A stretch of DNA of 64,000 nt, from the NCBI GenBank assembly GCA_032622095.1, contig CP136066.1:205244978-205308977 (forward strand), given 5' to 3'. Shown here piece after piece: positions 6,901-33,900 of the stretch (positions are counted from its first letter, which is position 1; the number at the start of each line of letters is the position of its first letter). The notes under the pieces are model-generated. The model was given only the letters and a program-made list of their open reading frames with translations. It had not been told where the DNA came from and ran no database searches. Made by a program: the position numbers and the translations under genes. The DNA is from Siphonodentalium dalli. Taxonomy: Eukaryota > Mollusca > Scaphopoda > Gadilida > Siphonodentaliidae.

Positions 6901-9900
6901 AAAATATTTGATTCGAGTCGAGGAACCCACCCATCAAAGCTCAGAGTGATCAGTTATTTTTGAAGTTTGTTATTTCTCGAGATGTGCAATTATTTCTGGC
7001 CCAGAAAAACGTCGTTAAACGGATGGCCTTGGAAAAATTTGCAGATGAAGATGGATAACTCGAAAATCAAGAGGTAATACGGACAAATTTTGTGATACAC
7101 AAGTGATAATACGGCCATATTTCATTGAACAAAATATTGATAAATAACAAGTTCTATGAAAAATGAATCCCTAGTTGACAGTGGTTAGCATTATTTTTGT
7201 TGCAATCGATTCTGATAAATAAAGCGTATTTTGAAGAAATGTTGTTGTTATATCTTGATGATATGGGGACCATCTGATCGGATTGAGTACCTTTAAATAA
7301 ATATTTGAGCTATTTAGGTAGCACAAAGTCATACTGACGTTTTTCAGGCCTGCGTGCATGGTCCCAATTGGGTGATTTTTGACAATCTAAATCACATGGA
7401 ATCTATGGACTAACTGTTATGCACATATGTTTAACACAGAGCTAGCCGATGCAGAGGCGGAATTCTTCATAGGCAATGTGCCCCAGAAATTAAAAAAAAA
7501 TTAAAAACCGCACGCTCGCATGCTTTTCAAACTTTGGACTGAGAAATGGGAAATTTACTTCGCATGACAATTTATAGATTTTCTTTCCATGCCTTGAATG
7601 GGCATTTTTGTCCAATTCAAGGTTATCCCCAGATTTCAATGCTCCATGGCAACCCTGTTATAAGATAGATATTGTGCACAGGAACAGAAATCTCATGTTA
7701 TGAGGTCAAGAAAATTTACATTTTTCTTGCAGTTTAATTGAAGGGTTAACTGCTATGTTACCTGGAGAGAACTTGATATCAGATATGGATTCCTTTCTGT
7801 GATGAGCTGTAACTATATCCTCCATTGTTTCCGCATTCACTACCACAAAACTACCTACAAACAAGACATCAGAGTTATTCACTACCACAAAACTATCTAC
7901 AAAGACGACATCGGAGTTAGCATTTAAATGTCATGCACTGCGGCTTATTGTACAAATAAACATCTACATCATTCACTACCACAAAACTACCTACAAACAA
8001 GACATCAGAGTTAGCATTTAAATCTGGTCAGTAAAAAGAGTAAAAGAGAGTAATTCTCAAAATTTGCATTGGTCAAGGTACATACTGTTATACCAATGTA
8101 TTCTCTGATATAAATGCGAGGCTCCTTATGGAAGACTCGTATATATAAGAGAATGCATTGGCACAGGGTTTCTGCAAAATTTTAGGAAGCTCCTGTCATA
8201 GAAGGGTTAAAGTCCAAACAAATTCCATTTCCTTACCCATTTTTCAAACATCCATTTTCACAAAAGTTTTAACCCTTTACCCAACAAACCGGCCAAATAA
8301 AGCTTCAACAGCCTAAAATATCTTCGGTCTGTCTCAATAGAACCATACAAATATGGATATCATTGGAACCGGCTCATTGACCACATTGTGATGGTTATAG
8401 TTATGCCCTGTGCCAATGCATTCTCTTATATATGCGAGTCGACCATAGGTCGCCTCGCATATATAAGAGAATGCATTGGCCTAAAAAAAATCTTTTTTTA
8501 ACACTTTTAACCATTTTTTCTTACATTCTTTAACAATTTTATAATTTTTAATGTGTTAAGCCAATGCATTCTCTTATATATGCGAGGCGACCTATGGTCG
8601 ACTCGCATATATAAGAGAATGCATTGGCACAGGGCCGTTCTGTTGGGTAAAGGGTTAACCTACTAGTTAGTGAAGCAACTCATATTCCGGTGGAAGATCA
8701 GATGAAATTCTTACCATCCTTAAGTCCCACGGCAATGGCTTTCCCATCTGGTGAGAAGTCACATGACCTGCACGCCTGTTTGAATTGTCTGTAGTTAATA
8801 AGTCGGTGATTGGTTGCCGTATCCCAGATTCGCAGTGTCTTATCATCGCTTACTGTAGCAATCATCTCCGTGATTGGATGAACGGCAAGGCCCCATAACT
8901 CCCCTTCCATATGTCCCTAAAATATATGTTATATATGTGAAGCACGAGCAAGTTATGAAGATGAAGAGTTCATGAAAACTTCTCATTTGTTACCAAGTGT
9001 TTCTATCAGATAGACACATTTAAATGTCCATTAACTAAGAGTTAATGCTACAATATTCCAACATTAAGAAATGAAATTAGGTCACTTAAATGATATTATT
9101 TAATTCTCATCTTTATATGAGCATATTTTAGGCAAAAAACTAAAAATTCTGTGTTCTCAGCTGAAATTTTCTTTTAAAAAGCATCGTCAAACATTTTTTC
9201 AATATTCTCTGTTAGAAAATTTGGATTTGAACAACGAAAATGAATTTTGGTTTGTAGCCCACCTCGGATTTTTGTTACTTACTCATGATCTCCCCCACAC
9301 CTTGCTCATAGTTGTAACAATGGAATGTGGAATTCACCGATCTCACAACCCAGTTAGTCAAATGTCCAAGTCTTGAAATAGTGTGTCTGTCATTTGCAGA
9401 ATGAGGTCCCCAGAGGGTGAATTTAGTGATGCTACCCCACATAGCAGGCTAGCATCACCAAATTCATCCTCTGGGAACCTCATTCTGCTGAGGTGTAAGC
9501 AGAATGAGGTCCCCAGAGGGTGAATTTGGTAATGCTAGCCCGCTATGCGAGGGTAGCATCACTAAATTCACCATCTGGGGACCTCATTCTGCAAATGACA
9601 GACATACTATTTCAAGGCTTGCAAATGTCCAAGAAGGGTATCCAATAGGCACTGTAGTAGCTGACAAACTTTGTTTTTGCCTTGGCATTTGTCTCGCCTC
9701 AGCCAATGTTCCATGTTAGGAAGCAACTGTTCTGAACAGAGTGCCAGAAATGATGAAGATGATAATGACAGCAAATACCTGAGTACCATAAAAGATGACG
9801 ACGATAATGACAGTGAATACCTGATTGCCAGAAATGATGATAATGACAGTGAATACCTGAGTGCCAGAAATGATGACGATGATAATGACAGTGAATACCT

Positions 9901-30900: not shown

Positions 30901-33900
30901 TCAGGGGACCTCATTATGCTTGGGCCTCATCTTCTCTGGTAAGTATATTTATTATCAAATTAACAAGTTTTTAAGTTTCTTTAGAAACTTTGTTAGAAAC
31001 TTTCTTAATTTAGTTTCCAAATTGGCAGACGACACAATTGCTGCATGTCTGTTACTTGAGGGGCATGCACCCGTTAGTTGGGGGGGTGTGACTCATATTC
31101 ACTACGTGATTATATCACGTCCCTCCCGATAGTATTCCTATAATTTTTTTTGTGATATATCACGTAAACCCCTCCTCTGTGTTGTTTTTTTTAAACTAGG
31201 TCTTTATTTAAATAATTATCTTGTCGATAAACCAATTAAATGTATCACATCCATTTTCAATGTATAAGCCCCTCCTTTTTAAAACCATGAATTTAACGTA
31301 TTCTCGAATTTTCTCCAAGATTTTCAACATAACATGTGTGCTTCAAATATTCCAGAACATTCTGCAGTTATACAGGAACCCTATTTTAGATTCGTATAAG
31401 AGCTTTCCCTTTTAAAATTTGGTAACTTAACCTTATTTTACATTCGTATATACAAAGCCCAACATTAAAATTTCACCACTAGTACATTTGCACTAACACC
31501 TGTGGATAATATCGAACTATGCAAATTGATTATAAATTTAGGTATATACATGCAAAACTCATTAGCCTTGTGCCTGTTGTATACTGGAAGATTTGCCATG
31601 CTTTTATAATATAAGCTTATCTGTGAATTGGACAAGTTAACCCATCAAACACATTTTGTCTCTAGTAACATTTTCTGGTTTTTTGAAGAGCGTTCGGTAA
31701 AAACTCATGCCATTGAAAAGAAAACAATAATTTTCTAACTCGAAAGAGGGGGATAACTCCACAAAACAGTCAGACAGGCCTCAAAATGGCAGGTGCACAG
31801 GTTCCCTTGGCACTAAGTTTTTTTTTAAATTGACAGAAAAATGTAGGAATAAAAGCTCAGACAATATTATGCATTTTGAGAAAGTCAGACAAAATTGTTC
31901 CACAGAGGGACGGACGGCTAGACAGACAAGTTGATTCTAGTATACCGCCCCACAACTTGTTGCGGGGGGTATAATAACTCTTTCCAAATATGGTTATGAT
32001 AATCCCTGCAATGGCCTTACCAGGCATTTTATAAAAGAGCCGCTCGGCTGCGCCACTGTTAGTCTGTAGGTAATTGCTATCTTCCGACCAATCGATGTGG
32101 GTGATGAAACTCGAGCTGCCTGAACATGTGCCGACACGCTTATACCTCTGGTCAACGGAATAAACATCAACGAAGTTGTCGTTGGACGCAACAGCCAGAA
32201 ACTTTCCGCATGGAGAGTATTTCATCTCGTGAATCACTTCCTTCCTGTCTTTGGCATGAGTAATTTCTGAAAGATCCCTGTAAGAGAAAAGCAAGGTGTA
32301 ATTAAAGATCCCTGTAAGAGAAAAGATCCCTGTAAGAGAAAAGCAAGGTGTAATTGAGAACATCTTTTTATAATTTATGACCTCAGGCCAAAAAAAAAAG
32401 GTTTTGGTTCTCAGGCCCCGCCGAATTGAATAAAAAGGGCCGCATTAGACCTTTTTATTGCAATGCCTGATGTTATGACAAAAAAACTTACGAAAAAATA
32501 AATTTGAAAAAAAAAAATATCAACATGTCCATAGCAGATATGTGTTGAATATTAGTGTGCATTGAGCTCTAACATGTAATGTCTTAAAAAGTGACTTGCA
32601 GGCTTACAACATGAAGTAGATGACTACAATTAAGAAAATGATTAGCTGATCCTCATGCTCTTCTTACAATTAGTCATTGTGAACAACTTACATTAATTGT
32701 AACTTTATACAATTGAAAGGCACAGGACTAAATTCAGGATCACATATTAGAATGGGGAGGTATCAGTTTTTAGACAACAATAACAGTAGTTAATGTCAGG
32801 GGCATTATATATTGTTAGGTAATCCCAGTCATACACTGGTAGTACAATGTCCTTTTTATATAAGACTAAATGAGTTTATATGCATAACAGTTCCCTCTAC
32901 CTTTCTGGTTATTACTAGACAGAGGAAGGTATCTTTGTCCATGCTTACTATGCGCAGAAAAAAATTAAAAATAAAAATAAAACCCTCCCTCCCTCATTGA
33001 TTTGAAAAAAAAATTGCCCGAGAACCAAACCCTTTTAATTTTTGGCCTAAGCAAGCCTGCAAATAGTGTGTCTGTCATTTGCAGAATGAGGTCCCCGAGG
33101 GTGAATTTAGTGACGCTACTGCATGGCGACCTCATTCTGCAAATGACAGGCTCACTTTTTGCAGACTTGAGCAAGGTGTAATTGAGTATTCTTTTTATAA
33201 TTTATGACCAAAGCAATGGCGTATGTGTCCAGGGAGATTGAAACTGCAAAAATTAGAAATATATATGATGCCGGGATTTATACTGTAGAAGGACCAGATT
33301 TAAGCTGACAAGAATTCAGCAATCGTGTATGCGAGGGCGGAATTTAGGTGACAAGAACTCAGTAATGGTGTACACTGTTGTCAGGATTTATCCTGACAAG
33401 ATCTCAGTAATGGTGTGGGATTTATCGGCAAAAGCTACTTTAAGGAATAGTTATGAGAAAATATGTCACATGGCCGTGATATAGAAATAAAAAACATGTT
33501 TTAACTCTTAGCTGAGCCGATTTTTGTACAATTTTTCCTATATTTGACCCTCAATTGTAAAAATACGGGTTCGTGTATTTCACTGGAAATGAAGAAACAT
33601 GAAAAATACTTTGAAAATAAGCCACAATAAAGTATAGGTAGGTTATCAGTTTACTTTTCTCACAATAGCCCCATGTGCATGATAATTCCTGATTCATAGA
33701 AAAACAGGGAGGTAATTTTAGCAGATCTGTACTGTCAAAAATATAGGTAACTCACTGGTATTCAGCACAAAGGAGACCTCCATATAAATCTGGTGCATCT
33801 ATGGTATCGTTACACTATTATCAAGGCTATTTAACATAATCCTTGATTTTTTCATGTATTCAAGATTCAGCAGCCAGGTTTTGGCTTCAGGTCTACTTAT

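Follow-up and report, generated by a model that had tools for sequence, protein, structure and literature searches.

Minisatellites that copy exon–intron boundaries, known as mirages, have been described in amphioxus, where they are reported from Adh3, the globin genes BflGb6 and BflGb9, troponin C and PGBD5 (PMC3087553, PMC3902484). According to the globin report, both 5′ and 3′ boundaries are duplicated, haplotypes of BflGb6 carry 6 and 3 units, and reverse transcription PCR suggests that splicing is normal (PMC3087553). In PGBD5, repeats of 60 and 108 bp are described at 5′ as well as 3′ splice sites within the one gene (PMC3902484). Here we describe an EML5/6-like gene in a stretch of 64,000 nucleotides (the window) in which four exon borders, two donors and two acceptors, are tandemly copied into the adjoining introns, where the splicing machinery apparently must select one from a set of nearly identical junctions. 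We consider that these arrays are probably mirage-type minisatellites that arose by local tandem duplication straddling an exon edge and that have been tolerated since the exon-proximal copy still works.

In the human gene IFI6 (G1P3, 6-16) the minisatellite has a 12-bp unit and acceptors are not known to be involved. Its repeat units lie beside the real exon end, as those of the EML gene do, and are reported to serve as splice donors (PMC4526556). The repeat donors of IFI6 are used for alternative transcripts, whereas the decoys of the EML gene are presumably removed with the intron. A model proposed by Rogers derives new introns from the tandem duplication of exon sequence containing AGGT, with a potato RdRp gene as a described case (PMC4974935). 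There, as in the EML gene, tandem duplication adds splice signals within a gene; unlike in that model, the boundaries copied here already existed, the reading frame follows the outer copy, and no new intron was identified. Arrays of the EML type are nevertheless the raw material that models of intron gain require. They bear on the origin of introns and of alternative exons, because the amphioxus globin report suggested that new introns could arise from arrays of this kind (PMC3087553).

The closest likeness is to the amphioxus mirages as described: in both, intron–exon boundaries at donors or acceptors have minisatellite-type copies, many of which carry AG or GT signals. In the EML gene, too, the coding exons are intact (1286 open codons) and the extra copies are intronic. 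Unlike the described mirages, this single gene holds four arrays, with units of 18–60 bp and up to 26 copies, and its genome is probably not that of a chordate. A sequence-only reading of the window had already drawn the comparison with mirages, which holds; it had regarded acceptor-side duplicates and several arrays per gene as unfamiliar, and both are in print (PMC3087553, PMC3902484). New here are the likely phylum, the presence of four arrays within a single gene and an initial frequency estimate, 10 of 228 junctions in other genes of the same genome. In the literature, in which subscription papers were thinly covered, we found no report outside amphioxus of such arrays affecting numerous borders within a single genome, a weak negative.

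Four junction arrays in the EML5/6-like gene

The window is part of contig C6 of a genome of 2.23 Gb in 9 contigs of 190–301 Mb each. Exons were found with a fragment of human EML6, and their borders were fixed by reading frame and splice signal. The gene lies on the minus strand (707..55674), as do all the exons named below; its start codon is at 55674 and its 3′ end is past the window. The model comprises 22 exons and 43 junctions in the window and 1286 codons with zero stops, and GT or AG is present at 43/43 junctions. The translation matched the Pfam families PF23414 (E 3e-233) and PF23409 (E 7e-162) as well as HELP, which places the protein, with its propellers, in the EML family.

Self-copies were detected at 4 of the 43 junctions, the donors of exons 11 and 17 and the acceptors of exons 8 and 19, and every extra copy was located on the intron side. 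The claim of the sequence-only reading, four tandem arrays at exon borders of one gene, is confirmed; the exon numbers given there agree with the 22-exon, stop-free model, and its copy counts were off by a copy or two at most. The units hold exon and intron sequence contiguously, and they include exonic bases as had been claimed, the matched exonic bases numbering 15 in the exon 11 array, 7 in exon 17, 8 in exon 8 and 21 in exon 19. The description of the arrays as centred on the junctions did not stand, since each unit contains its junction at an off-centre position.

Exon 11 (25443..25659) ends on the gene strand in ATATCCATGG/GTAAGG, the slash marking the border, with 25443 as the last exonic base and the authentic donor at 25443/25442. 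Its array (24835..25457) consists of 10.4 copies of a 60-bp unit with 97% matches. The 10 extra copies place a decoy donor every 60 bp, from 25382 down to 24842, and all of them keep CATGG/GTAAGG intact. A 120-base query made of two units found its own locus as the sole match in the 2.23-Gb genome, in a search that skips very common words; the unit is therefore of local origin rather than a dispersed element.

The donor array of exon 17 (10812..11051; authentic donor 10812/10811) is the longest of the four in copies. The exon ends in ACTCACTCAG/GTATTC on the gene strand, with 10812 as its last base, and the 42-bp array then extends to 9739. The whole array (9739..10818) includes 26 copies and the junction copy; Tandem Repeats Finder (TRF) placed the 26 copies at 9739–10781, to which the junction copy is additional. 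About 25 extra copies are present, and 25 donor-core sites were found, including the real one; the G of GT is retained in 25/25 of them, the T being fixed by the search pattern.

Both acceptor arrays are shorter, with two extra copies each. At exon 8 (32021..32277; authentic acceptor 32278/32277, first exonic base 32277) the array (32270..32355) contains three copies of TTACAG/GGATCTTT in nested 18/34-bp units, which puts decoys upstream at 32311 and 32329. Exon 19 (7762..7854; authentic acceptor 7855/7854) starts on the gene strand with TTGTAG/GTAGTTTTG, its first base being 7854. Copies of this junction occupy 7835..8013, as a pair of 42-bp units side by side and a third one (7972–8013) that is set apart by about 50 bp; the decoys are at 7896 and 7990.

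Predicted consequences of decoy use

Use of either of the two exon 8 decoys would shift the reading frame and lead to a stop at codon 398 or 404. Each of the 10 decoys of exon 11 would lead to a stop at codon 679, because the intron opens with GTAA in frame. Among the 17 copies tested in the exon 17 array, 13 would introduce a stop, and those at +72, +114, +156 and +195 would be in frame and open. The nearer decoy of exon 19 would add 14 residues in frame and leave the sequence open; the farther one would lead to a stop. Since decoys add stops, frame shifts or inserts, the coding sequence is unchanged only with the exon-proximal site, and this site, the first donor or the last acceptor, is presumably the one that is spliced.

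The mirage-type explanation can be set out in steps. A short stretch straddling the exon edge by accident would have undergone tandem duplication, by slippage during replication or by unequal exchange, followed by growth of the array on the intron side; we infer that the duplication took place at the DNA level. The exon-proximal junction would preserve the coding sequence, and the remaining junctions would be decoys lost with the intron. Such an array could be tolerated because the exon-proximal junction leaves the coding sequence intact.

Boundary arrays in other genes

The EML gene had been selected because of its arrays and was kept out of the sample used to estimate how often junctions carry self-copies. 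The unselected sample consisted of exons of dynein heavy-chain genes (17 regions) and of kinesin, SNF2, adaptin and anoctamin genes, found by family searches in which repeats were ignored. Junctions were placed by protein continuity and by splice scores trained on the EML gene. Out of 138 exon pairs, 114 introns (228 junctions) were resolved: 53/60 pairs for dynein, 31/39 for kinesin (6 unresolved and 2 not fetched), 27/30 for SNF2/adaptin and 3/9 for anoctamin. The rows of the search output that were used had been picked by eye (dynein 81/96, kinesin 105/123, SNF2 52/73, adaptin 25/30, anoctamin 16/32). Omitted rows were near-identical gene copies, stop-filled rows, long single-frame matches, and rows that lay outside the chosen regions or were neighbourless. 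Three SNF2 rows at locus L142 were omitted after their repeat spacing had drawn attention; this locus and the acceptor at L151 were spotted through repeats and are uncounted. Myosin heads were also searched and were kept out of the sample, with many matches in near-copy clusters on contig C4, where a cluster of many similar myosin heavy-chain matches was seen at 274–275 Mb.

A junction was considered covered if its 20 bases (10 per side) were found again at most 430 bp away with at least 17 matches. The 17/20 rule was fixed ahead of the retrieval of the kinesin, SNF2/adaptin and anoctamin sets. The maximum distance allowed was not constant: it was 500 and then 1000 bp early, open within the locus for kinesin, 400 for SNF2/adaptin and finally 430 bp. 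For the background the same measure was taken at unmasked intron positions with a weight of 1/copy number, because a real junction is one copy per array.

Coverage was observed at 6 of the 62 kinesin junctions, 2/106 in dynein, 2/54 in SNF2/adaptin and 0/6 in anoctamin, which gives the 10/228 outside the EML gene, six donors and four acceptors. With the four EML junctions included, the extra copies were on the intron side in 14/14 covered junctions. All six kinesin cases were donors: 14.5 copies of 30 bp after ...SKITRLLK (L090), 12.1 copies of 34 bp after ...NLVDLA (L045), 3.8 copies of 90 bp (L063), 4.3 copies of 60 bp (L089), and 3.1 copies of 60 bp after ...LANLGNVIMALANK (L041); at L075 the copies lie at a distance of 108 bp. 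The junction at L089 was counted though its placement is weak (donor score 1.3). Of the acceptors, two belong to dynein, L033 (5.6 copies of 65 bp) and L032 (one copy of 120 bp at a distance of 424 bp), and two to adaptin, L100 (4.2 copies of 72 bp) and L134 (one copy at a distance of 115 bp). The uncounted acceptor at L142 is SNF2-like and carries 5 copies of 127 bp; at L151, judged by eye, an anoctamin exon start is repeated in several irregular units of 98–179 bp with about 100 exonic bases, and these repeats were first visible as repeated anoctamin family matches. Three further loci fell below the rule and were uncounted: at dynein L025 the copies had diverged, at dynein L020 part of the exon matched a second time about 660 bp away, and the third locus is kinesin L074. 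At L074 an array of 10 copies of 40 bp ends two bases short of a kinesin acceptor, the pyrimidine tract being common to the copies and the AG excluded.

The kinesin locus L090 belongs to three closely similar genes on contig C7 (with L143 and L144) that have the 30-bp donor array in common, with 13, 10 and 13 exact core copies. These differences in copy number are as expected of an unstable minisatellite. Upstream of this donor array there is a 37-bp array, the unit of which gave the impression of resembling the final part, STLGNVI, of the kinesin exon before it.

The copies were homogeneous in several arrays, with 94–98% matches in exon 11, L045, L063, L089 and L090; the values were lower in exon 17 (90%) and L041 (81%). 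This bears on the explanation that arrays are retained for useful extra splice sites, such as decoys with a role in tuning splicing or in drawing U1/U2 to positions along introns. The retained G of GT throughout the exon 17 array and the 10 intact exon 11 decoys would agree with such a use, and so would the service of IFI6 repeat units as splice donors. However, intact sites are expected without selection in arrays as homogeneous as the five with 94–98% matches, and many decoys would produce stops. We regard retention for useful sites as very improbable.

Boundary arrays compared with random placement

With each array treated as one randomly placed unit, 0.68 covered junctions are expected by chance in the EML gene, and 4/43 were observed. 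Among the 228 junctions outside this gene, the unit-weighted intron null gave an expectation of 3.6–3.9 against the 10 observed (P 0.004–0.006). A motif-matched null gave 4.4–4.8 (P 0.016–0.026). Allowing for the motif weakened the excess (to P 0.014–0.026) because the unit rate is somewhat raised at donor-like sites in introns: with border-array copies removed, the rate at unused intron motifs was 2.4–2.9% for donor-like and 1.3–1.5% for acceptor-like sites. When expectations were summed set by set they came to 4.49/222 (P 0.017), and under the strictest null P was 0.05 without the weakly placed L089. Counted as TRF arrays, 7/25 outside the EML gene spanned a junction, with 2.2 expected (P 0.004); by set these were 5/9 in kinesin (1.0 expected, P 0.001), 1/11 in dynein and 1/5 in SNF2/adaptin. 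An excess of about two- to threefold in the pooled sample is thus suggested, and some 4% of junctions may carry self-copies (95% interval 2–8%).

Several of these results weigh against duplications that straddle exon edges purely by accident. Random placement expects 3.6–4.8 of 228 junctions, yet 10 were observed (P 0.004–0.026). The excess remained when 20/20 identity was demanded (7/222 vs 1.48, P 0.002) and, more weakly, at 30/30 identity (4/222 vs 1.19, P 0.04). Border arrays also had more copies than others (median 4.3 vs 2.2), and at least five copies were present in 4/9 border arrays vs 6/44 others (Fisher P 0.053). The contrast in the EML gene itself is null-dependent, the expectation there being 3.9/43 when every array base counts. 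Slow decay of the functional copy, by which border arrays would stay recognisable longer, was rejected as the sole cause of the excess, which was no smaller at perfect identity.

One way to account for the excess is that in this lineage exon–intron boundaries themselves attract tandem duplication as hotspots, for instance through transcription-linked breaks or a property of splice-site sequence. Besides the pooled excess and that of the spanning TRF arrays, the intron motif rates given above agree with this idea, as does the finding that arrays not spanning a border were no denser near borders (0.6–0.7% at 20–120 bp vs 0.8–1.6% farther, a difference that is partly geometry). The families, however, are uneven: kinesin supplies 6 of the 10 cases and differs from dynein and SNF2/adaptin together (Fisher P 0.03), and the anoctamin set has none. 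The set-by-set expectation tempers the excess as well, and lax nulls remove it. When every array base counts, about 16/228 are expected and there is no excess; when the motif-matched background retains the border-array copies (rates of 4.2% and 3.2%), the expectation is about 8.4 (P 0.34). Furthermore, the exonic share of the unit was broad (mean 0.47) and not distinguishable from uniform (Kolmogorov–Smirnov P 0.31 with the EML gene, 0.10 without it). This breadth is as expected of a random cut straddling the exon edge and, with non-spanning arrays no denser near borders, gives no indication that cutting occurs at a fixed point. Boundary hotspots in the lineage therefore seem rather unlikely to us.

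Chance alone, in a repeat-rich genome and a window chosen by a pattern-seeking reader, would be another account. Local repeats cover 7.2% of the unmasked intron positions, dynein alone shows no excess (2/106 vs 1.4–2.0 expected), and the pooled count is at or under expectation with the laxer nulls. A raw-coverage null, which was computed first, likewise indicated no excess (10.6/149 expected, 6 observed); it was set aside because a real junction is one array copy, so that an array of n copies amounts to one unit. Against chance stand the pooled sample, which exceeds the unit-based expectation, and the kinesin TRF arrays, more than half of which span a junction. Chance alone is in our view on the unlikely side. 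It and the hotspot explanation are two answers to the question of whether borders seed the arrays, and both overlap with the mirage-type explanation.

The sequence-only reading had put forward a boundary-seeded process and proposed a scan for an excess of tandem repeats at exon borders. Run on the present sample, that scan yielded an excess in the pooled count which was driven mostly by kinesin and did not survive the lax nulls, with 8 or 16 junctions expected; dynein showed no excess. A boundary-seeded process is thus possible and unproven, and the pooled sample somewhat favours it over pure chance. That borders are duplication hotspots genome-wide, with about one junction in twenty inside an array of near-identical decoys, is a doubtful extension to the whole lineage. 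Should this be true, the arrays would be a steady source from which alternative exons and new introns could be made, and they would test how the spliceosome chooses among identical sites.

If about 4% of junctions are self-copied, they amount to a natural experiment in which identical donors or acceptors are regularly spaced and differ mainly in their distance from the exon. The predicted outcomes of decoy use range from in-frame insertion to an immediate stop, so that the strength of the preference for the exon-proximal site would be measurable.

Likely phylum of the array-bearing genome

Deuterostomes and annelids normally have phosphagen kinases of the creatine-kinase type. Among 22 phosphagen-kinase matches in the genome, the six exons of one domain (L161–L166) were read and appear to be of the arginine-kinase type; for the four of them that were searched in the PDB, arginine and taurocyamine kinases ranked far above creatine kinase. 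Because the exons read appear to be of this type, the genome is probably non-chordate, mollusc-like or of another protostome, which is to be taken as a lead and does not identify the animal. The mollusc haemocyanin domain PF14830 and the annelid haemoglobin linker PF16915 had no match in the genome, a result that is uninformative since control genomes were likewise without a match. If the genome is non-chordate, mirages would be extended beyond chordates.

Other features of the window

A large CAT-rich minisatellite with 78- and 147-bp periods occupies 3624–4904, within the intron that separates exon 20 from exon 21, and touches no junction. Upstream of the start of the EML gene, a 24-bp array of 6.2 copies with 96% matches is located at 62112–62261. 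Raised GC (0.47 and 0.41) together with AT skew of 0.21 and 0.16 was noted in intron 6 (38001–42000), and a minus-strand open frame of 227 codons (50231–50911) gives, from its translation, the impression of a piece of a reverse transcriptase. Inverted-repeat elements around GCAGAATGAGGTCCCCAGAGGG recur at 9399–9597, 12399–12594, 14515–14710 and 30830–30920 and are probably like miniature inverted-repeat transposable elements; a relative of this element is carried by the dynein locus L031.

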